From Flavobacteriales bacterium (lineage in GTDB: Bacteria; Bacteroidota; Bacteroidia; Flavobacteriales_D; Crocinitomicaceae): a stretch of 64,000 nucleotides of DNA. Both the position numbers and the translations under genes were made by a program. The stretch's first letter is position 1; every line of letters begins with the position of its first letter. Shown here piece after piece: positions 2,137-55,035 of the stretch. The DNA lies in the NCBI GenBank assembly GCA_947488235.1, contig CANLAQ010000006.1, forward strand, positions 1-64,000, in the 5' to 3' direction. The notes under the pieces were generated by a model, which saw nothing but the letters and a program-made list of their open reading frames with translations, searched no databases and was not told the DNA's origin.

Positions 2137-3546
2137 TTGGCACATAAAATTAAGTTTGGAACAGATGGATGGCGCGCTATTATTGGCGAACATTTTACCG
2201 TAGAAAATGTTGCACGGGTGACCGAAGCAACAGGAATTTGGTTGAAACAAAATTATGATAATCCAACTGTAATCCTTGGACATGATTGTCGTTTTGCAGG
2301 TGAATTATTTATGGAAACAAGTGCGAAAGTTTTTGTTGCTCAAGGAATTCCTGTGCGCATGGCTCGTGGATTTGTTTCTACTCCAATGATTTCCCTTGCT
2401 GCTAATCAATTTAATTGTGAAATTGGAGTAATCATTACCGCAAGCCATAACCCTCCTTCCTACAATGGCTATAAGTTAAAAGCCTTCTTTGGAGGACCTT
2501 TAGAACCAGAAAATGTTCAAGCAATTGAAGATATCATACCGGATCAATGCAGTATAGATTATCAATCTATTGATATTAATAAATGTATTGAAGAAGGCAA
2601 AATAGAAATTGCGGCAATTGCAGAAAGATATATTGACCATGTAAAGAAGAATTTTGATCTTGATGCCATAAATAATTCCGGATTAAACTTAGTTTATGAT
2701 GCCATGTATGGTGCTGGACAAGGCGTAATGCCTTTGATTTTACCTAATGTCGCTTTGTTACATTGTGACTACAACCCTTCCTTCATGGGACAAGCGCCCG
2801 AACCAATCGCTAAAAATTTACAGGAATTATCTAAATATATTACGGATCATAAAAATATTCATTGTGGATTGGCAACGGATGGTGATGCGGATAGAATTGG
2901 ATTGTATAATGGTAAAGGAGAGTTCATTGATTCTCATCATATCATTCTCTTGTTAATTCATTATCTGGTGAAATACAAACAAATGACAGGCAAAGTAGTC
3001 ATTGCATTCAGTGTTACACCAAGAGTTGAAAAATTATGTGCGCATTATGGATTAAGCCTTGAGACCACGAGAATCGGATTTAAAGAGATTGCTTCCATAA
3101 TGATCAAAGAAGATGTGTTAATTGGTGGAGAAGAGTCTGGTGGAATTGCAGTTAAAGGTCATATTCCAGAAAGAGATGGCATCTGGATGGGATTAATTAT
3201 CTGGGAATTTATGGCTAAATCAGGGAAAACATTAGATGAATTAATTGATGAAGTTTATGCCTTGGTAGGTCCTTTTAAATTTGAGCGAAATGATTTGCAC
3301 ATTACAGAAGCATTGAAACAAAAAATAATTTTGAATTGCAAGGCAAATAACTATACTCACTTTGGAAAATACGCTGTTAAGGAAGTTAAAACAACAGATG
3401 GATTTAAATATTTCTTCGATGAGGAACGCTGGGTGATGATCAGACCATCGGGCACTGAACCCGTTCTTAGGACCTATGCTGAAGCTCCAACATTAGAAGA
3501 GGTTAGAGAAATTTTGAAGGCGACTGAAGATACAATTTGTAAATAA
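2137..3546 (+). CDS. Phosphoglucomutase/phosphomannomutase family phosphohexomutase
   Basis: A 469-residue alpha-D-phosphohexomutase moving phosphate between C1 and C6 of hexose phosphates through a phosphoserine intermediate. All four signatures are present: catalytic serine S103 in ITASHNPPSYNG, the Mg loop D248-G-D250-A-D252-R, the sugar-specificity loop GGEESGG around residue 330, and the phosphate-binding RPSGTEP near the C-terminus. The start is TTG at 2137; no ATG precedes KIKFGTDGWRA, and this N-terminal segment is conserved in the family, so TTG is well supported. It follows rocD by four bases. Whether glucose, mannose or glucosamine phosphate is the natural substrate cannot be told from the sequence. 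Confidence 0.9.
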   Translation: MAHKIKFGTDGWRAIIGEHFTVENVARVTEATGIWLKQNYDNPTVILGHDCRFAGELFMETSAKVFVAQGIPVRMARGFVSTPMISLAANQFNCEIGVIITASHNPPSYNGYKLKAFFGGPLEPENVQAIEDIIPDQCSIDYQSIDINKCIEEGKIEIAAIAERYIDHVKKNFDLDAINNSGLNLVYDAMYGAGQGVMPLILPNVALLHCDYNPSFMGQAPEPIAKNLQELSKYITDHKNIHCGLATDGDADRIGLYNGKGEFIDSHHIILLLIHYLVKYKQMTGKVVIAFSVTPRVEKLCAHYGLSLETTRIGFKEIASIMIKEDVLIGGEESGGIAVKGHIPERDGIWMGLIIWEFMAKSGKTLDELIDEVYALVGPFKFERNDLHITEALKQKIILNCKANNYTHFGKYAVKEVKTTDGFKYFFDEERWVMIRPSGTEPVLRTYAEAPTLEEVREILKATEDTICK

Positions 3547-46276: not shown

Positions 46277-47383
46277 TTGAAAAAGATAGTCAGTACCTCA
46301 GCTAAAATAATTACAAGTATTTTCATTCTTGGATTGCTGATGGGATATGCATCTCCTTATTTTCATCCAAACACGATAACATTTTTACCTTTTTTCGGGT
46401 TAAGCTACCCTATTTTTGCAGGCGGCGTAATCACTTTTATGTTGATTTGGGCCGTTTTTAAGTCAAAATGGGCGGTTTTTTGCCTTTTTTTCCTATTAAT
46501 TGGCGGAAAATTACATTTTCGTAGTTTCGCCTATAATTTAACCAATACTTCAGATTCTATAGAAAATCCTGATAATAAACTTAAATTGTTAAGTTATAAT
46601 GTTCGCTTATTTGGGATTTACGAACCAACAAACGCTATACAAAATAGAGATGGCATTTTTAGTTTCTTGCGAAAAGAAAATCCAGATGTTGCCTGTTTTC
46701 AAGAATATTACCGACAAGACAAACCCACCAATTTCGAGACATTTGATTCCTTAATGTCCTCTGTACATGCTGTTGATTATCACGAAAGAAGTGCTCATAA
46801 AATAAGTGGTCGACAAAATTTTGGTATTGCCATGTTTTCAAAATATCCTATGATTGCAAAAGGAGATGTAATGTTTGATACGCAGAGTTCGAGTGATTTT
46901 AATTATTGCATTTTTGCTGATATCGTAAAAGGCAAAGACACATTTAGGATTTATAATGTTCACTTACAATCCATTCGCTTACAAGAAGGTAACTATACAA
47001 CGGAGCGGATTGGAAATCAACGCGTGCCCAGCAAATCCACCATCCTTAAAGTGATTAAAAAATTAAGATTGGCCTATCAAAAAAGAGCTGATCAAGCAAG
47101 AAGGGTGGTTGAACATGCATCAAACTCACCTTATCCAAGCGTAATTTGTGGCGACCTTAATGATACCCCTATGTCCTACTGCTACAACCAATTCAACAGA
47201 AAATACATTGATGCTTTCAGAAATTCTTCATGGGGAATTGGATCTACCTACATTGGTCGATTGCCTGCTGGAAGAATTGATTATATTTTTCATACACCAA
47301 CATTGAACAGCACAGAATTTCAAGTTCATTCCGAGAAGTTAAGCGACCACAGGGCTATATCATGTAAGATTGAGAAGCTATGA
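46277..47383 (+). CDS. Membrane-anchored endonuclease/exonuclease/phosphatase family protein
   Basis: A 368-residue protein with two or three N-terminal membrane helices (about 5-25, 38-58, 60-80) and an EEP domain facing outward or periplasmic: LKLLSYNVRLFGIYE, PDVACFQEYY, the NVHLQSIRL strand, CGDLNDTPMSYCY and the final SDHRAISCKI (catalytic histidine). It hydrolyses phosphodiester or phosphomonoester bonds; the substrate (lipid, nucleotide or DNA) is unknown. TTG start at 46277, four bases after the rhomboid stop; its TGA overlaps the next gene's ATG. Confidence 0.88.
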   Translation: MKKIVSTSAKIITSIFILGLLMGYASPYFHPNTITFLPFFGLSYPIFAGGVITFMLIWAVFKSKWAVFCLFFLLIGGKLHFRSFAYNLTNTSDSIENPDNKLKLLSYNVRLFGIYEPTNAIQNRDGIFSFLRKENPDVACFQEYYRQDKPTNFETFDSLMSSVHAVDYHERSAHKISGRQNFGIAMFSKYPMIAKGDVMFDTQSSSDFNYCIFADIVKGKDTFRIYNVHLQSIRLQEGNYTTERIGNQRVPSKSTILKVIKKLRLAYQKRADQARRVVEHASNSPYPSVICGDLNDTPMSYCYNQFNRKYIDAFRNSSWGIGSTYIGRLPAGRIDYIFHTPTLNSTEFQVHSEKLSDHRAISCKIEKL

Positions 47384-47997
47384 TTTTAGAATTAAATCCT
47401 CAATCCATTGATCAAAGGCAAATTATTCAAATTGTAAATTATCTAAATCAAGGTGGAATTGCCATTGTTCCTAGCGATACCGTTTATGCCGTGGTTTGTA
47501 GTCTGAATAATAAAAAGGGCTTAGATAGTCTTGCAGCATATAAAGGTTCCTCGCTAAATAAATTAAAATTTTCCTTGATTTTTAATGATTTTACGCAGTT
47601 ATCTGCCTATACCTCTCCGATTGACAGAAGTATATTTCGCTTATTAAAAACAAATTTACCAGGGCCATTTACCTTCATTTTACATGCACATAAAAATGTA
47701 TCTAAACTATTTTTATCTAAACGAAGTGAAATGGGGATGCGCATACCCAACAATACCATAATTCAAGAAATCATAAAACAATTGGGTAATCCATTGGCAA
47801 GTACCTCTTTGCACAAAGACACTGAGGATACAGACTCTTATTTTACAGATCCAGATGAAATTTATGAGCAATTTGAAGATGAATTTGGATTAATCGTACT
47901 TGGTGGCACTGGAAATAATGTTCCCTCTACCATTATAGATTGTTCACAAGGAGAGATAAATATTATAAGACAAGGATTAGGTATCTTAAAAACATAG
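47380..47997 (+). CDS. YciO/YrdC/Sua5 family protein (L-threonylcarbamoyladenylate synthase-like)
   Basis: A 205-residue YrdC-fold protein. Members make threonylcarbamoyl-AMP for the t6A modification at tRNA position 37, or are YciO-like relatives of unclear activity. Visible are GGIAIVPSDTVYAVVCSL, KFSLIFNDFTQLSAYTS, LPGPFTFILHA, MGMRIPNN and PLASTSLHK. 'SDTVYA' and the short length, without a Sua5 domain, favour the YciO subgroup. Overlaps the EEP gene by four bases. Confidence 0.87.
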   Translation: MILELNPQSIDQRQIIQIVNYLNQGGIAIVPSDTVYAVVCSLNNKKGLDSLAAYKGSSLNKLKFSLIFNDFTQLSAYTSPIDRSIFRLLKTNLPGPFTFILHAHKNVSKLFLSKRSEMGMRIPNNTIIQEIIKQLGNPLASTSLHKDTEDTDSYFTDPDEIYEQFEDEFGLIVLGGTGNNVPSTIIDCSQGEINIIRQGLGILKT

Positions 47998-48000
47998 ACT

Positions 48001-48564
48001 ATGTTGCTTATTATAGATTGCGGAAGCCAAAAAACTCAATTTATTGAGGAGTTAGTTGATCTTCATTTGGACTATAAAACCATTTCGATCCTAGATATAA
48101 GTCCAGAAGAAGTTGAGAAATACACAGGGATTATTATTTCAGGCGCACCGATTCAAATAACAGAAGTCGATATGCAACTCTATTTAGATCAAGTAGAATG
48201 GATAAAAACCACTACAATTCCAGTATTAGGGATTTGTTTTGGTCACCAATTAATAGGATTGTTGTTTGGAGCCTATGGTTCAAAAATGAGAGAGGACAGA
48301 GACTGGCAAGAAATTGAAGTGCTCGCAAATCACGCCTTATTCGAACGCATGCCCCTTATCTTTGAAATGATGGAAGATCATTGCGAATGTATTTCTTTAC
48401 CACCTAATTTTGAATTGATTGCTACCTCAGACGCCTGCGTAAATGAGGCCATGTCGCATCCCACTAAAAGTATTATGGGCGTGCAATTTCACCCTGAGGT
48501 GTCTGGGAATTTTGGAGCAGTTTTAATAGAAAATTTTATAAGCCTTTGTGAAACCAAGGATTAG
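48001..48564 (+). CDS. Class I glutamine amidotransferase (GMP-synthase-like)
   Basis: A 187-residue glutaminase-type domain: cysteine nucleophile in VLGICFGHQLIG, and histidine/glutamate in GVQFHPEVSGNFG, with IIDCGSQKTQFIEEL and IISGAPI. Standing alone without a synthetase domain, it resembles the YfeJ/GATase1 'GMP synthase-like' proteins whose ammonia acceptor is unknown. Last gene of the run starting at mutL. Its last bases overlap the 3' end of the frameshifted Crp/Fnr gene. Confidence 0.87.
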   Translation: MLLIIDCGSQKTQFIEELVDLHLDYKTISILDISPEEVEKYTGIIISGAPIQITEVDMQLYLDQVEWIKTTTIPVLGICFGHQLIGLLFGAYGSKMREDRDWQEIEVLANHALFERMPLIFEMMEDHCECISLPPNFELIATSDACVNEAMSHPTKSIMGVQFHPEVSGNFGAVLIENFISLCETKD

Positions 48565-49276
48565 TTTCCAGCTAAAGAGATTAATTTTATTTTATCAATC
48601 ACTCTAAGTTTACGAACCTCGATTTCCAAACAACCATCTTCTTTAAATTCTTTCAGAAGGCGAATTAATGTTTCCGTAGCGGTACGACAAAATTGGCCAA
48701 GTCTTCTCGAGATAGATTAATAGGATCTTCACCATAAATATCCATTAAAATCAACAAAGAGAAAGCCAGTCGTTCACGAACAGATTTTTGCGCCATATTG
48801 GTAATAAAATCAGCACGATCAGATAATTCATGAGAAAGTTCTTTGATAATCCCATTTCTAAGGGTAGGATTAAATTCAATCATATTTAGGAAATCTTCTT
48901 TCGCAATAAAGCAAATGTTAGAATCCTCAAGAGACTCTGCAGCAACTTTATACAATTCACCGCTAAACATGGCGCGAAAACCAATTAAATCGCCTGCTTT
49001 GGCAATATGAATTATTTGTTCTTTTCCTTCGTCGCCGCGCTTAAAGACCTTAACCTTTCCATGATTTAAACAAAATACACCCCTAGGCGTTGAGCCTTCG
49101 ACAAAAAGAGATTGTGTTTTTTTGTAAAAATTACAAGCCCGTTGAGCTTCAAGAGTATCCAATTCAGCGCCCGAAATTCCATTAAATAAACCATGACCTC
49201 TCGACTTACAAGTAGAGCAGGTAACATGTTTATACGATTCATCAAGCATTGATTTCATTGAATCAAAGCTAGTCAT
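48561..49276 (-). pseudogene. Crp/Fnr regulator with a frameshift inside the helix-turn-helix
   Basis: From ATG 49276 the frame gives a Crp/Fnr protein with an N-terminal cysteine group (CSTC, 20-23), a cNMP-like roll (HGKVKVFKRG, KAGDLIGFRAMFSG) and the start of the winged helix (DPINLSREDLANFV). It then ends abruptly as VPLRKH at 48665. In the adjacent frame the rest of the domain continues without a stop (TATETLIRLLKEFKEDGCLE through LISLAGN, stop at 48561-48563). Restoring one G near 48685 would give NFVGTATETL, the expected recognition-helix start. So a one-base loss truncates the DNA-binding domain. FnrL/FixK-like oxygen-responsive regulators have this build. It could also be a sequencing error. 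Confidence 0.85.
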
Positions 49277-49332
49277 TTTATCATTAGAAAATAAATATGA
49301 TTTTCGTCATTTTTTAGCGTTTTTAGAACTTG

Positions 49333-49340
49333 TATTTTTG
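49333..49340 (+). promoter_or_regulatory. -7 element before the hemN/TauE fusion ORF
   Basis: TATTTTTG matches TAnnTTTG and ends three bases before the ATG at 49344; presumably the original hemN promoter. Confidence 0.42.
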
Positions 49341-49343
49341 TAC

Positions 49344-49751
49344 ATGATTGATAAAGAAACCATTGAAAAGTATAATGTTCCAGGTCCTCGTTACACTTCC
49401 TATCCAGCAGTTTTATTCGGAATAATTAATGGATTCCTGCCCTGTGCTATGGTTTATTTTGGCTTACTCAACGCCATGAGTAGTCACAATTCTCTAGTTT
49501 CCATGTACGCCATGATTGCCTTTGGATTAGGTACCCTGCCAGCGATGTTGACACTTGGTTTTATTAAACAGAAAAAACTATTATCTAAGCTTAACTTCAA
49601 GAAGGCGGTACCTATATTATTGATTATTGCAGCGCTGCTGACTATCTTAAGAGGATTAGGTTTAGGTATACCATTAATTAGTCCAAGTATCACTGATGTT
49701 AGTAATACACACCAACATCCTAAAATGGAATGCTGCAAAGCGCCTGAATAA
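49344..49751 (+). pseudogene. Chimeric remnant: hemN 5' end joined in frame to TauE/SafE-like 3' end
   Basis: A 135-codon frame of two unrelated parts. Residues 1-23 (MIDKETIEKYNVPGPRYTSY then PAV) are the N-terminus of oxygen-independent coproporphyrinogen III oxidase HemN. From about residue 24 (FGIINGFLPCAMVYFGLLNA) it is the C-terminal half of a TauE/SafE-type 'sulfite exporter' membrane protein, with FGLGTLPAMLTLGF and ILRGLGLGIPLISP, and a histidine/cysteine tail (HQHPKMECCK). The radical-SAM core of HemN and the first helices of the transporter are missing. The join is near 49407-49416. It is best read as a deletion scar; the ORF may still be expressed but is unlikely to have either parent activity. 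Terminator follows. Confidence 0.82.
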
Positions 49752-49754
49752 AGC

Positions 49755-49788
49755 AAAAAAAAAGGGTCCGAATGGAACCCTTTTTTTT
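49755..49788. terminator. Terminator between the fusion ORF and the T9SS cargo gene
   Basis: AAAAAAAAAGGGTCC, loop GAAT, GGAACCCTTTTTTTT: GC stem with one bulged A, A-run and T-run on either side, so usable from both strands. Confidence 0.8.
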
Positions 49789-49803
49789 GATTAAATAAAT
49801 CAA

Positions 49804-52737
49804 TTACATTTTAATGAACTTGACAGATTCAACTTGTTTTCCTGAAACAAACTTAACAATGTAAGTTCCATTTGGAATATCATCACCGTCAATGAATAAA
49901 GTATTTTCTCCAGCAGACATATAATTATCACTTACAGTTTTAATTAAACGACCTGTAATAGAGTAAACATAAGCTTGAACACTTCCACCTTTAGCCAAAT
50001 TGAAAGCTAAGGTAGTTGAGTTATTGGTTGGATTTGGATAAGTCTTTAGATTCGTTTTGAAATTAGCTCCTGTATTGGAACCATTATTATTTAAACCTAA
50101 ATAAGCAGCAGAGCTCCAAATTCCACGACCGAAAGTACCGATATAAATTTCACCTGGACGGTTATTCCCTTCTTCGAAAGTTCTCCATGATTGACGCACT
50201 TCGTATACTGGCGTTCCTTCAAATCCAACAGAAGCATAATCCCAAGATGCACCGCCATTTTCAGTAACGAAAACACCATTGGATGTTCCAACTACAATAA
50301 TATCCGAATCATCTCTATCTATTATTCCGTCATAACAAGCAACTCCAGGACTCGTAATACTTCCTAAAGAAGTGTAAGAGGGTACAGATGCCGTTGCATT
50401 CAGTGATCGTTTGTTGGTTCCGTTAAATCCAGCAAATAAGACAATGTCATTTGCATTATTAGGATTGACCGCTAAACCTTCATAACTCGTATTCGATATT
50501 TTGGTTGCTGTCGTATAATTTGGAGTTGTACCAGTGACACCTGTTCCAACATAAGCGACTTTGTCTTTGAAATTAGCCTCTGTAGAATAAGCACTTCCTA
50601 GACCATCAACGCGCCAAACACCAGAACCAGCAGAGATATAACAATGCTCTAAATCCTTGGAGAATTCTACATCTACATTGTTAAAGGTACCAGCACCAAT
50701 TCCTCTAGCGACACATACCCAATTAACATTTGTAATGGCCAATCTTAATGCATTTCTTGTTCCCCAAAGTTCACCTCCGTTAGCATTAACAAAAACAAGG
50801 AACCAAGATTGATATGGATCTTGAACTCTCAAGGTATCCCAAGCAACATTATAAGCTACTGTATCAGTGCCCATAGCATAGGTTTCACCAGTTGCAGGAT
50901 TTTGTCCGTAGTTAACAGAACCTACTGTCAAAGAAGGAGTATAGTTTAAGGTGTCATCAAAATATAAATTTGATGAAGCAACATAAGTAATTGAATCTCC
51001 AGAAGACAAACTTGGAACACGAATGATTGCTCCTGAGCTGTAATTTTTTGTTGGAACATAAGTCACTGAATCCTTAGAATTCAAATCATAATATTCAGCC
51101 AAGACAAACTCAGTATGGAAAGGGTGAAAAGGGCTTCCATCAGTACCACAAGGATCATATGTACCAGGTAAAATAGGAACAAAAGAAGATGAAGTAGCAC
51201 CTTTATCTCCTGATCTAGCAATTGAATTGTAATAAACAGAGGAGAACATAACTTTAGGATTGAAGAATGAAATCTCACATTCAAAACCATCGCCTCCACC
51301 TACTTCTGTAAAAGACTGGAAAGTTGAACCTGTATGGTCGTTATACAAAGATCCATTATCTTGCGTACCTCCCATTACAGCACCATCTCTATCGAAGGCA
51401 ATTCCGTAAAATTGAGTGACATTATAACCTCTATTTGCTGGATACCAAGTACCACCGAAGTTATTTGAGATACCAACACCACCATCATTTCCAATATAGA
51501 GTCTATTATTAGCATCCCACTTCATTTCATGATTATCAGCATGTGCATAAATTGGAGAGTTTGGAGAAACAAACCATTGACTCACTTTCAAGAAAAATCC
51601 TGATGGAGGATTATTTACCGCTTGATTCCATTTCCAAATATCAATACCACCAACAAGAATTTCTTCATTATCTGTAGGATTAACAGAAACTATTGAATTA
51701 TAGGTTCCTTGATCGCGATAAATATCAAATTCATTTGGAGGAGCTGATGCACCTACGAATTGATACCAAGTTTGACCGTTGTTATGAGAAACATGCATAC
51801 TCAATAAGTTACTGTTTGTTCGAACAGCATATATAGAATATTGATTAGTCGTTGTACTCTTTGTTGGAGAAATAGCATATTCAATTCTTCCTGCACCAGT
51901 AGGTACTAAATTATTTCCAATGGTTCCAGTTTTATCAGAAAAACTAACACCTCCATCTACAGACACATAAGTTTTATTAGCAGCAAACGAAGCGACAATA
52001 ACTGAAGCGTCAGAAGAAACTTTTAGAGCAAAACATCCGCCAGAAGTTACTGTTACATTAGTCATTGAAGCATCACCTAATTTCCATTTTTTCAAACCAG
52101 AAGAAGTTGCCATCCAAACATAATTATCTGCGTTGGTGCTGATTATTTCTGTACAATTTGATGTTCCTGGAATTGCATTCCAAGTAGTTCCAAAATCACT
52201 AGAATACCAAACACCATTTCCATTCCACCCTTCTTGATTCGAACCTGTTGCAACATACAATACACCATCAGGTGATTGCGCCATACTTGAAATAAATGGA
52301 TTTCCGCCAGCTGCTATATATTCTGGAACACGCGTCCAAGAATTTCCTTTGTTTAATGAGGTAAATAAACCTCCAGAAACACCACCAGCCCAAATGCGAT
52401 TGATATTCGTGCGGTCTATTTGAATAGCACGCGTTCTACCACCAATATTGTCAGGACCTTGTTCTTCAAAGCTAATTGTTTTTGATTGCTTCATTTTGGA
52501 TATTTGATCTGCAATCATTGCTAATTTCTCAGCAGAAACAGCTTCACCGGTAGTTACATCAATATATCGCGCTTTCATCCAAGCAGCTGCATCATCAGAT
52601 TTAGGCTGATTTAACATGCTTAAATCAGCTGATTGGTATCGAGATAACAAATCAAGTTGACCGAAAGGTGAAAAATAAAAGGCTGTAGCTAATACTGCAA
52701 TTGCCACAGAACCAATAAGATAGACTTTTTTATTCAT
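49804..52737 (-). CDS. T9SS-sorted sortilin/BNR-like propeller protein
   Basis: A 977-residue secreted protein: signal or anchor MNKKVYLIGSVAIAVLATAF; about residues 90-480 form a sortilin/BNR-type propeller with Asp-box-like turns (SLNKGNSWTRV, SSDFGTTWNAIPG, SVDGGVSFSDKTG, SHNNGQTWYQF, NNFGGTWYPA, ENGGASWDYASVGF). A variable middle region (about 560-700) follows, then more blades, and a type-A T9SS sorting domain from TYPNPTNNSTTLAF (near 905) to VKFIKM. No catalytic sialidase arginine triad is recognisable, so it is a binding or scaffold protein rather than a proven hydrolase. Confidence 0.87.
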   Translation of the reverse strand: MNKKVYLIGSVAIAVLATAFYFSPFGQLDLLSRYQSADLSMLNQPKSDDAAAWMKARYIDVTTGEAVSAEKLAMIADQISKMKQSKTISFEEQGPDNIGGRTRAIQIDRTNINRIWAGGVSGGLFTSLNKGNSWTRVPEYIAAGGNPFISSMAQSPDGVLYVATGSNQEGWNGNGVWYSSDFGTTWNAIPGTSNCTEIISTNADNYVWMATSSGLKKWKLGDASMTNVTVTSGGCFALKVSSDASVIVASFAANKTYVSVDGGVSFSDKTGTIGNNLVPTGAGRIEYAISPTKSTTTNQYSIYAVRTNSNLLSMHVSHNNGQTWYQFVGASAPPNEFDIYRDQGTYNSIVSVNPTDNEEILVGGIDIWKWNQAVNNPPSGFFLKVSQWFVSPNSPIYAHADNHEMKWDANNRLYIGNDGGVGISNNFGGTWYPANRGYNVTQFYGIAFDRDGAVMGGTQDNGSLYNDHTGSTFQSFTEVGGGDGFECEISFFNPKVMFSSVYYNSIARSGDKGATSSSFVPILPGTYDPCGTDGSPFHPFHTEFVLAEYYDLNSKDSVTYVPTKNYSSGAIIRVPSLSSGDSITYVASSNLYFDDTLNYTPSLTVGSVNYGQNPATGETYAMGTDTVAYNVAWDTLRVQDPYQSWFLVFVNANGGELWGTRNALRLAITNVNWVCVARGIGAGTFNNVDVEFSKDLEHCYISAGSGVWRVDGLGSAYSTEANFKDKVAYVGTGVTGTTPNYTTATKISNTSYEGLAVNPNNANDIVLFAGFNGTNKRSLNATASVPSYTSLGSITSPGVACYDGIIDRDDSDIIVVGTSNGVFVTENGGASWDYASVGFEGTPVYEVRQSWRTFEEGNNRPGEIYIGTFGRGIWSSAAYLGLNNNGSNTGANFKTNLKTYPNPTNNSTTLAFNLAKGGSVQAYVYSITGRLIKTVSDNYMSAGENTLFIDGDDIPNGTYIVKFVSGKQVESVKFIKM

Positions 52738-52872
52738 AATTCTAATATTAGAGCACTATATAATAGCGTGCAAGATAATGATATTTTTTTTACGAGAGAA
52801 TAGGTTTTAAACACTTTTTTTATTTTTTTTTGACATTTAAATGACATACAATTAATCATAATTTATTCTAGG

Positions 52873-53739
52873 TTAAAATAAATGTTTTTCCGCATGATAA
52901 GAGGATCTAACCAAGGGTCCGGATTCTACATAGCGAAATCCCATGGAAAGACCTAAATCTTTATAATAAGCAAATTGTTCGGGCGTGATGAATTCCTCTA
53001 CAGGTAAATGTTTTGGAGTAGGTTGAAGATATTGTCCTAATGTCAAGACATCTACCTCCACTTGCCTCAGATCTTGCATGGTTTCAATGACCTCTTCCAC
53101 ACTTTCACCTAAACCCAACATAACACCTGATTTAGTTCTCATGCCCCCTTTCTTTAGGCGAAAAAGTAATTCTAAACTTCTATCGTATTTGGCTTGTATG
53201 CGCACTTGTTTGGTTAAACGACGCACCGTCTCCAAATTGTGTGATACAATTTCTGGTGCCACATCAATAATATGTTGTAAGTTTTCCCAATTACCCGCAA
53301 AATCTGGAATCAAGGTTTCCATGGTAGTGTTTGGAGATTGCTGACGAATAGCTTTAACGGTTTGTACCCATATTTCAGATCCACCATCTTTTAAATCATC
53401 GCGATCTACTGAGGTTAATACCGCATGTTTGACACCCATAATTTTTACACTATTGGCGACTCTTCCTGGTTCAAAAATATCTACTTGCTCTGGTTTTCCA
53501 GTTTGCACTGCGCAAAAACCACACGATCTTGTACAAATATTCCCTAAGATCATAAAGGTAGCGGTGCCCTCTCCCCAGCATTCTCCCATATTGGGACAAC
53601 TTCCACTTTCGCAAATGGTATGCAGTTTGTGCTCGTCTACTAGTGATCTTACTTTTCTGTAGTTCTCACCAATAGGCAACTTTACCCTCAGCCAACTTGG
53701 CTTTTTCATTCTAGGTGTTTCCTCTTTTAGTTCTATCAT
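52873..53739 (-). CDS. lipA: Lipoyl synthase
   Basis: A 288-residue radical-SAM enzyme inserting two sulfurs into the octanoyl chain on lipoyl domains such as the E2 protein at 26 kb. The N-terminal auxiliary-cluster cysteines lie in [12 protein letters not shown], the radical-SAM cluster in CTRSCGFC, and the C-terminal serine ligand in VRSSYHAE. Length and order are standard. Faces away from the OsmC-like gene. Confidence 0.97.
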
Positions 53740-53828
53740 TATGAATACAAAATTCGTAAAAGTTACCTAATAACATCTATAAATAACAAATTGTTTTTGA
53801 GTAAGATTATCCCTCCTTAAAAAAGCCT

Positions 53829-53836
53829 TACTTTTG
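53829..53836 (+). promoter_or_regulatory. -7 element of the OsmC-like gene
   Basis: TACTTTTG, 13 bases before the ATG at 53850; a TTTG lies at 53796-53799 but at a 29-base spacing, longer than usual. Confidence 0.4.
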
Positions 53837-53849
53837 CTAAACAATTCAT

Positions 53850-54248
53850 ATGGAAATTTCAACTGTTAATTATTTAGGAGACTTGCGCACTGAGTGTATT
53901 CATTACTCAGGAGAGAAGATACTTACAGATGCCCCTAAAGATAATTTTGGTAAAGGCGAAGCATTCTCTCCAACTGATTTAATGGCTACTTCTTTGGCGG
54001 CATGTTTTATAACAATAATGGGTATATATTGCGGACAGAATGGTATTAAAATGGAGCATTGCACTGCAAAAGTGGAAAAAATCATGTCCGCACTTCCTAG
54101 AAAAATCGCTAAAATTAATATCCGATTTAATTTATCAGAAAACCATTGGGATAAAGCTACTTTTGATGCGGTTGTCAGTGCTGGAAAAAAATGTCCCGTT
54201 GGATTAACCATTGAAGAAGTTGTAGCAATTGATTATATTTTTGAATAA
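53850..54248 (+). CDS. OsmC family protein
   Basis: A 132-residue peroxiredoxin-like protein of the OsmC/YhfA fold. One redox cysteine is in SLAACFITIMG (near 52) and the second in KKCPVGLTIEE (near 115). Such proteins reduce organic hydroperoxides with lipoylated partners; neighbouring lipA is suggestive but not proof. Two bases... its stop at 54248 is directly followed by the RlmB-like gene, whose ATG is at 54250. Confidence 0.88.
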   Translation: MEISTVNYLGDLRTECIHYSGEKILTDAPKDNFGKGEAFSPTDLMATSLAACFITIMGIYCGQNGIKMEHCTAKVEKIMSALPRKIAKINIRFNLSENHWDKATFDAVVSAGKKCPVGLTIEEVVAIDYIFE

Positions 54249-54249
54249 A

Positions 54250-55035
54250 ATGGAAAGAGAAAGAAACTATATTAAAAAGGAAAAATCAGATGTGATTTTT
54301 GGAATCCGCACGGTTATTGAGGCGATTCAAGCAGAACGAGAAATCAATAGAATTCTGATACAAAAAGGGATGAACAAAGATTTGTTCATGGAATTAAAGA
54401 ACGAACTAGCAGATAAAAACTATCAATTACAATTTGTTCCTGTTGAAAAATTAAATGCCTTAACTTCTGGAAATCACCAAGGAGTAATTGCTTTTGTGTC
54501 GCCTATCGAATATGGAGATATTGAAGTTGTGATAGACGACATGTTATTAAAAGGAGAGAAACCATGTGTTCTCGTATTGGATAGAATAACGGATGTAAGA
54601 AATTTTGGAGCGATAGCAAGAACAGCTGAATGTCAAGGAATCGATGCAATATTAATTCCCGCCAAAGGTTCTGCACTTGTCACTGCTGACGCGATGAAAG
54701 CCTCTGCAGGAGCATTAAATAGAATATTAGTTTGTAAAACAGACAACCTAAAAAACACCTTATTTTATTTACAACAAAGTGGACTAAGAATTATCGCTTG
54801 TACTGAAAAAGCAAGTGTTCCATTACAAAGCATCAATCTAAGAGGACCAGTGGCCATGATTTTCGGATCAGAGGAAAGTGGTATTACCAGTGATCTTATT
54901 TCTATGTCGGATGCTCGATTGAGAATCCCAATGAAAGGAGAAATTGCTTCTTTGAATGTGAGTGTTGCTGCTGGTATTGTTATGTATGAAAAAATGCGTC
55001 AGGATGCAGAAGTAATGTTTACCAAAGAAAAATAA
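54250..55035 (+). CDS. rlmB: TrmH/RlmB-type 23S rRNA (guanosine-2'-O)-methyltransferase
   Basis: A 261-residue SPOUT methyltransferase. N-terminal ribosomal-RNA-binding L30e-like part (16-95, FGIRTVIEAIQAEREINRIL, 'SGNHQGVIAFV'), C-terminal trefoil-knot with LDRITDVRNFGAIARTAE, IFGSEESGI and the closing RIPMKGEIASLNVSVAAGI. The RlmB subgroup methylates G2251 of 23S rRNA, but TrmH-type tRNA activity cannot be excluded. ATG 54250 lies one base after the OsmC-like stop. Confidence 0.9.
   Translation: MERERNYIKKEKSDVIFGIRTVIEAIQAEREINRILIQKGMNKDLFMELKNELADKNYQLQFVPVEKLNALTSGNHQGVIAFVSPIEYGDIEVVIDDMLLKGEKPCVLVLDRITDVRNFGAIARTAECQGIDAILIPAKGSALVTADAMKASAGALNRILVCKTDNLKNTLFYLQQSGLRIIACTEKASVPLQSINLRGPVAMIFGSEESGITSDLISMSDARLRIPMKGEIASLNVSVAAGIVMYEKMRQDAEVMFTKEK

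Follow-up and report, generated by a model that had tools for sequence, protein, structure and literature searches.

Fusion pseudogenes can form at short direct repeats by microhomology-mediated deletion. The locus described here, in an uncultured Flavobacteriales bacterium, is like such deletion scars in that two distant genes are joined within a short repeat and the flanks are undisturbed, and it differs from them in nothing essential, although it happens to keep its reading frame. It lies in the window, by which we mean the whole analysed stretch of 64,000 nucleotides (C6:1-64000 of a 74.8-kb contig), and the bin it comes from (G000) is a 2.45-Mb draft assembly (100 contigs, completeness 89%, contamination 0.56%). 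We are confident that a recent 9870-bp deletion, probably aided by microhomology, left an in-frame and very probably non-functional hemN'-'dsbD_2 relic in this lineage. Gene loss by deletion is ordinary as a kind of event, and the value of the case is its base-level clarity together with the parallel losses, which make a good natural series. The loss of a high-affinity oxidase can be mapped to the base and set among parallel losses within one genus, and the question of when cbb3 respiration becomes dispensable turns into one that is testable with metagenomes. Among the matches listed by a literature search, none describes the deletion or the genus-wide losses in its title or the opening of its abstract.

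The intact form of the locus is a cbb3-oxidase gene cluster. In a protein search of 60 related genomes, including the own one, eight members of the same genus (G002, G008, G011, G013, G015, G024, G029 and G035) had a HemN start and a DsbD_2 end on a single contig and strand, separated by about 10 to 13 kb. Seven of the eight loci have the order hemN, P-type ATPase (about 784 aa), ccoNO (about 724 aa), ccoP, ccoG, fixH and DsbD_2; downstream of DsbD_2 there is a 977-aa T9SS protein in reverse orientation and then a lipA-like gene, and a reverse fnr precedes hemN wherever the contig extends so far. The names of the cluster genes rest on the proteins of a sister species, G099, in which the cluster hemN-ccoI-ccoNO-ccoP-ccoG-fixH-DsbD_2 lies in one piece (L090, contig G099:C7) between the same fnr and T9SS-protein flanks as in the window. 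Pfam and NCBIfam assign these proteins to TIGR00538 (hemN), ATPase-cat_bd, NF011053 (bifunctional cbb3 subunit I/II), FixP_N, TIGR02745 (ccoG), FixH and DsbD_2. The ccoP protein scores under the NCBIfam equivalog cut-off (125.5 against 179.95 bits) and is supported by Pfam FixP_N and Cytochrome_CBB3; NCBIfam gave no match at E 1e-10 for the fixH and DsbD_2 proteins of G099, and the names lipA, GATase and endonuclease for flanking genes were given by eye. The cluster that the sequence-only reading had expected beside an Fnr-like regulator (hemN-ccoI-ccoNOP-ccoG-fixH-TauE) is thus present in G099 at the same site, with ccoN and ccoO fused and DsbD_2 as the 3' gene. The window shares with G099 the locus, the outer genes, the flanks and the upstream dyad, but it lacks everything between hemN codon 21 and DsbD_2 residue 128. 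The features of the locus are as follows.

48561..48664, minus strand: 3' rest of the fnr gene, no longer in frame (aligned with G099 and G106; the end position follows from the blastn offset)
48665..49276, minus strand: gene for an Fnr/Crp-type regulator, cut short at 203 aa by a one-base deletion relative to both sisters; the sensor domain is still there and the HTH is gone
49297..49310, no strand: TGA-N6-TCA dyad (ATGATTTTCGTCAT), candidate Fnr/Crp-type operator between the divergent fnr and hemN
49344..49406, plus strand: hemN codons 1-21, the last two common with DsbD_2 (profile match, alignment to sisters)
49401..49406, plus strand: deletion join; the microhomology TATCCA is exact over 6 bp, and over TATCCANCNGT 9 of 11 bases agree; compared with G099, 9870 bp are absent (alignment to G099)
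49407..49751, plus strand: 3' end of the DsbD_2 (TauE/SafE-like) gene, 114 codons and the native stop (Pfam, alignment to G099)
49756..49788, no strand: terminator-like hairpin and T tract, placed where the relic and the T9SS-protein gene converge (terminator scan, reported on the minus strand)
49804..52737, minus strand: right flank, 977-aa protein with a T9SS sorting domain, the usual neighbour of the cluster in the genus

The fused frame is open from a TTG at 49338 or an ATG at 49344 through the stop ending at 49751, and its product of 135 aa is made up of hemN codons 1-21 and the last 114 codons of DsbD_2. Codons 1-19 are certainly from hemN, codons 20-21 (Y-P) are common to both genes, and DsbD_2 residues 128-241 follow. 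In a profile search, residues 2-24 correspond to positions 3-25 of the 454 in the NCBIfam hemN profile TIGR00538 (E 1.4e-4), which bears out the HemN N-terminus read earlier from the letters, but the 20.8 bits are far from the cut-off of 324.95 and the relic does not qualify as a HemN; the G099 HemN scores 420.5 bits, with Radical_SAM at its residues 55-227. This radical-SAM part is missing from the fused frame, as had been noticed from the sequence. Residues 22-97 match positions 121-197 of the 199 in Pfam DsbD_2 (PF13386, E 4e-16), where the G099 protein covers positions 2-197; the relic is not a full DsbD_2 domain, with more than half of the profile missing and about three hydrophobic segments left by plain hydropathy. 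The 3' half had been taken for a TauE/SafE-like protein, and it is indeed the C-terminal part of a membrane protein, but of another family: we discarded the name TauE, since Pfam gives DsbD_2 and no match to TauE proper (PF01925) in the relic at E up to 10. DsbD_2-type proteins, we presume, often carry the annotation "sulfite exporter TauE/SafE family". The fused frame should be annotated neither as HemN nor as a TauE/SafE transporter. In the own binned genome, the window is the sole site with a DsbD_2 match; a 133-aa TauE half-match on contig C17 was considered as the missing half and rejected, as it matches PF01925. As for the promoter and terminator that had been claimed for the fused frame, the terminator-like hairpin at 49756-49788 (minus strand) agrees with the second, and for the first the scan of the relic locus used a sigma-70 model, which is not meaningful for Bacteroidota, and its result was discarded.

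The join can be placed by comparison with G099. A blastn search with window positions 48001-54300 gives two blocks, 48001-49411 (93.9% identity) and 49401-54300 (94.3%), so the flanks on both sides are equally diverged from G099, and the G099 offsets of the two blocks differ by exactly 9870 bp, a multiple of three, which leaves the join in frame. An in-frame deletion between hemN and the 3' gene, proposed from the sequence alone, is thereby supported. Around TATCCA, 9 of 11 bases agree between hemN and DsbD_2 of G099 (TATCCAACAGT and TATCCAGCCGT), and the residues at the join are S-Y-P-T-V-P in G099 hemN, A-Y-P-A-V-L in G099 DsbD_2 and S-Y-P-A-V-L in the window. When up to three mismatches are tolerated, a 33-base pattern spanning the join occurs in one of the 86 genus genomes, the own one. 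The closest of the 86 are G106 and G099, with Fnr 97% and 95% identical and the T9SS protein 98% (over a part) and 97% identical to those of the window. In the tree of the T9SS protein, in which the row of G106 is only 47% filled, the three genomes form a clade with support 100, with G099 and G106 together at 97. G106 has the same start as the window, there heading a complete hemN, and its cluster is split over contigs C192 and C123, which hold hemN, ccoI, ccoNO, ccoP, ccoG and fixH; C123 ends 27 residues into DsbD_2. Both nearest species thus carry a whole hemN and not the short fused frame, and the ancestral gene order in the nearest relatives and the colinear flanks that mark a deletion relic are there, in G106 on two cut contigs.

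The deletion would have arisen by slippage or end-joining at the two copies of TATCCA. It would have taken out most of hemN, the whole of ccoI, ccoNO, ccoP, ccoG and fixH, and DsbD_2 in its 5' half, and would have left the in-frame fusion behind the old hemN start and control region. That the frame was kept is probably luck, a chance of 1 in 3. The fused product is very probably without function, because it has no HemN catalytic domain and only half a membrane domain. Against G099, the DsbD_2 part of the relic has 5 nonsynonymous and 13 synonymous changes (omega 0.10) and no excess of amino-acid change; in six of seven intact DsbD_2 pairs omega is 0.09 to 0.16 (three with dS above 1.6), and one pair is saturated. 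As the relic resembles the intact pairs, either the deletion came well after the two species separated or the product is under constraint.

No FixO match was found in the own bin, 89% complete, and with it no ccoN or ccoO of a cbb3 cluster. Nor did the bin yield a full HemN, only the 22-residue match of the relic and two partial, sub-threshold matches elsewhere, one of which spans residues 51-292 in a 376-aa frame that, by its length, may be HemW-like. The original site of the cluster lies within one contig and is empty of it; with a bin of this completeness a copy elsewhere in the organism is conceivable. Cytochrome bd (CydA) had no match in the bin. Two COX1 proteins are present and both carry the motif GHPEVYI; we take GHPEVY to be typical of aa3-type oxidases and both proteins to be of that type. 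HemF is present as well. Since two aa3-type oxidases remain, what was lost would be the cbb3 branch of respiration and not respiration as such. Oxygen would then be reduced by the aa3-type oxidases, and coproporphyrinogen would be oxidised by the O2-dependent HemF only. The earlier suggestion that the strain has lost a microaerobic terminal oxidase is supported by the searches for FixO and HemN in the rest of the bin, with the qualification that the two aa3-type oxidases were kept. Across the genus, cytochrome bd subunit I occurs in only two of the 86 genomes, in G074:C48 (L171) and in G076:C17, and G076 has no FixO match.

A join of this kind could also arise from assembly or from mixing of strains, the contig jumping from hemN to DsbD_2 in an organism that still has the cluster. 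The genome is a draft in 100 contigs and 89% complete, close species with the cluster are found among public MAGs, so that the intact sequence may occur in similar samples, and the cluster could be on a contig that escaped binning or be carried by other strains of the same population. We consider such an artefact unlikely because the stretch common to both genes at the join is very short: exactly shared are 6 bp, which is shorter than the k-mers of assemblers and should not be enough for a k-mer assembler to make a join. The same divergence of both flanks from G099, the in-frame join, the lack of FixO and full HemN elsewhere in the bin, and the neighbouring Fnr-type regulator, which is broken too, also speak against it. 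A little less probable still is that the fusion is maintained as a small membrane protein with a new function, for example in the handling of copper or thiols by what remains of DsbD_2, its C-terminal half. The frame that is open from the old start to the native stop, the omega of about 0.10, and the upstream dyad and downstream hairpin that have been kept would all suit such a protein. Most of the divergence from G099 may however predate the deletion, which makes omega uninformative on selection, and over half of the DsbD_2 profile is missing, the partner genes are gone, the join occurs in none of the other genomes of the 86-genome set, and in G081 a scar of this sort is broken up by stops and gaps.

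It is scarcely credible that the cluster was never in this lineage and that the sister species acquired it at this site by transfer. Its distribution is patchy (FixO in 26 of 86 genomes) and the ccoNO tree disagrees in places with that of the T9SS protein (G024 groups with G087 in the ccoNO tree only), which would fit a gain, although the deepest forks of the ccoNO tree are weak. On the other hand, the window holds both outer ends of the cluster, colinear with G099, other lineages of the genus have the cluster at this site in this gene order, and distances in ccoNO agree with those in the T9SS protein (rho 0.74, 22 genomes, reached in 0 of 999 permutations). From the places where the two trees disagree, some transfer of the cluster within the genus is possible. 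The deletion remains by far the best explanation of the window.

The regulator next to the relic is damaged as well. The fnr product is 203 aa in the window against 238 aa in G099: near codon 196 the window is one base short of both G099 and G106, whose copies are intact. With Pfam at E up to 0.001 the window protein matches PF00027 only and the G099 protein PF00027, HTH_Crp_2 and Crp; the window protein has lost the Crp-like HTH that, with the cNMP-binding-like domain, defines an Fnr-type regulator. Fnr matches are found in 57 of the 86 genus genomes, and where no contig end interrupts the match it extends to query residue 197 or 198. At E up to 1e-20, 24 of 26 FixO-positive and 33 of 60 FixO-negative genomes have a match (Fisher p 0.0009, not corrected for kinship). 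Of the FixO-positive genomes, G093 and G100 lack one, and in both the FixO contig breaks off within the cluster; that of G093 has neither a ccoI nor a hemN match ahead of ccoNO. In G020, which has no cluster, only the end of fnr is left. The TGA-N6-TCA dyad is plausibly an Fnr/Crp-type operator. It is present in all 21 tested rows with fnr beside hemN or a hemN scar, related rows that are not independent (19 with hemN, that of G104 cut by a contig end, and the scars of G000 and G081), in 4 of 23 tested cluster-less rows (G094, G107, G096 and G066) and in 3.2% of mononucleotide shuffles.

The loss in the window is not unique and is one of many cluster losses in the genus. Among the genomes that are at least 90% complete and at most 5% contaminated, 16 of 50 have a FixO match. 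On the T9SS-protein tree of 74 species, a quick tree of one protein in which some absences will be assembly gaps, presence and absence of the cluster change at least 16 times. A pruned tree of 53 tips needs a minimum of 12 changes; it keeps genomes that are at least 90% complete, or have the cluster, or have a scar, and drops incomplete cluster-less ones. If the cluster is ancestral and was never regained, the full tree would require 32 losses and the pruned tree 22, with midpoint rooting.

Two further scars resemble that in the window, with the 5' end of hemN joined to the 3' end of DsbD_2 between fnr and the T9SS-protein gene, but they have other breakpoints and belong to other lineages. In G081 (L095, 814-1128) hemN residues 1-40 are followed by DsbD_2 residues 192-238, out of frame and decayed, with stops and gaps. 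In G094 (L101, spacer 666-890) only about three hemN codons are left and the start is joined almost directly to the DsbD_2 tail. Compared with G086, the fnr-hemN spacer and hemN start of G094 are 89% identical over 107 bases, and the DsbD_2 tail with what follows 77% over 56 bases; a match at the hemN start and then at the DsbD_2 tail implies a loss of about 10.3 kb. G107 (L107, spacer 3036-3313) has kept the dyad of the hemN control region, without a clear coding remnant and with no cluster gene beside it. The other cluster-less spacers that were examined gave no hemN or DsbD_2 remnant (tblastn with G099 proteins, E up to 1e-3), and a match in G026:C11 was not accepted as a relic, its frame being full of stops and its neighbours not those of the locus. 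It may be that the whole microaerobic unit, hemN through DsbD_2 and later Fnr, is repeatedly deleted in one step with ends inside the first and last genes, that this loss is favoured where oxygen is plentiful, and that the window, G081 and G094 are separate stages of one recurrent adaptive loss. We put this forward tentatively, with somewhat more doubt than belief.

The arrangement of the cluster also varies. In G029:C20 (L074) it is not beside the T9SS-protein gene, has no fnr and contains an 829-aa frame on the other strand, and in G087:C38 (L159) it has fnr and lies away from the T9SS-protein gene. In G074 the fnr-hemN-ccoI and ccoNO-to-DsbD_2 parts are on different contigs (L169 and L160; C101 and C109), and the ccoNO parts of G074 and of G093 (L168, G093:C126) have no ccoI match in front. 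G015 has a second FixO match in a 765-aa frame (G015:C8:1972-2670) as well as the usual cluster on its C3. On the far side of fnr, at 47380-47997 of the window, a Sua5/YciO-like gene (named by eye) lies between the endonuclease-like and GATase-like genes, likewise in G099 and not at that place in G002, G008, G015 and G035. In three genomes of another family of the order (G039:C1, G050:C17 and G057:C1) the order is opposite to that in the genus, the end of a DsbD_2 match being followed at once by a hemN start on the same strand.
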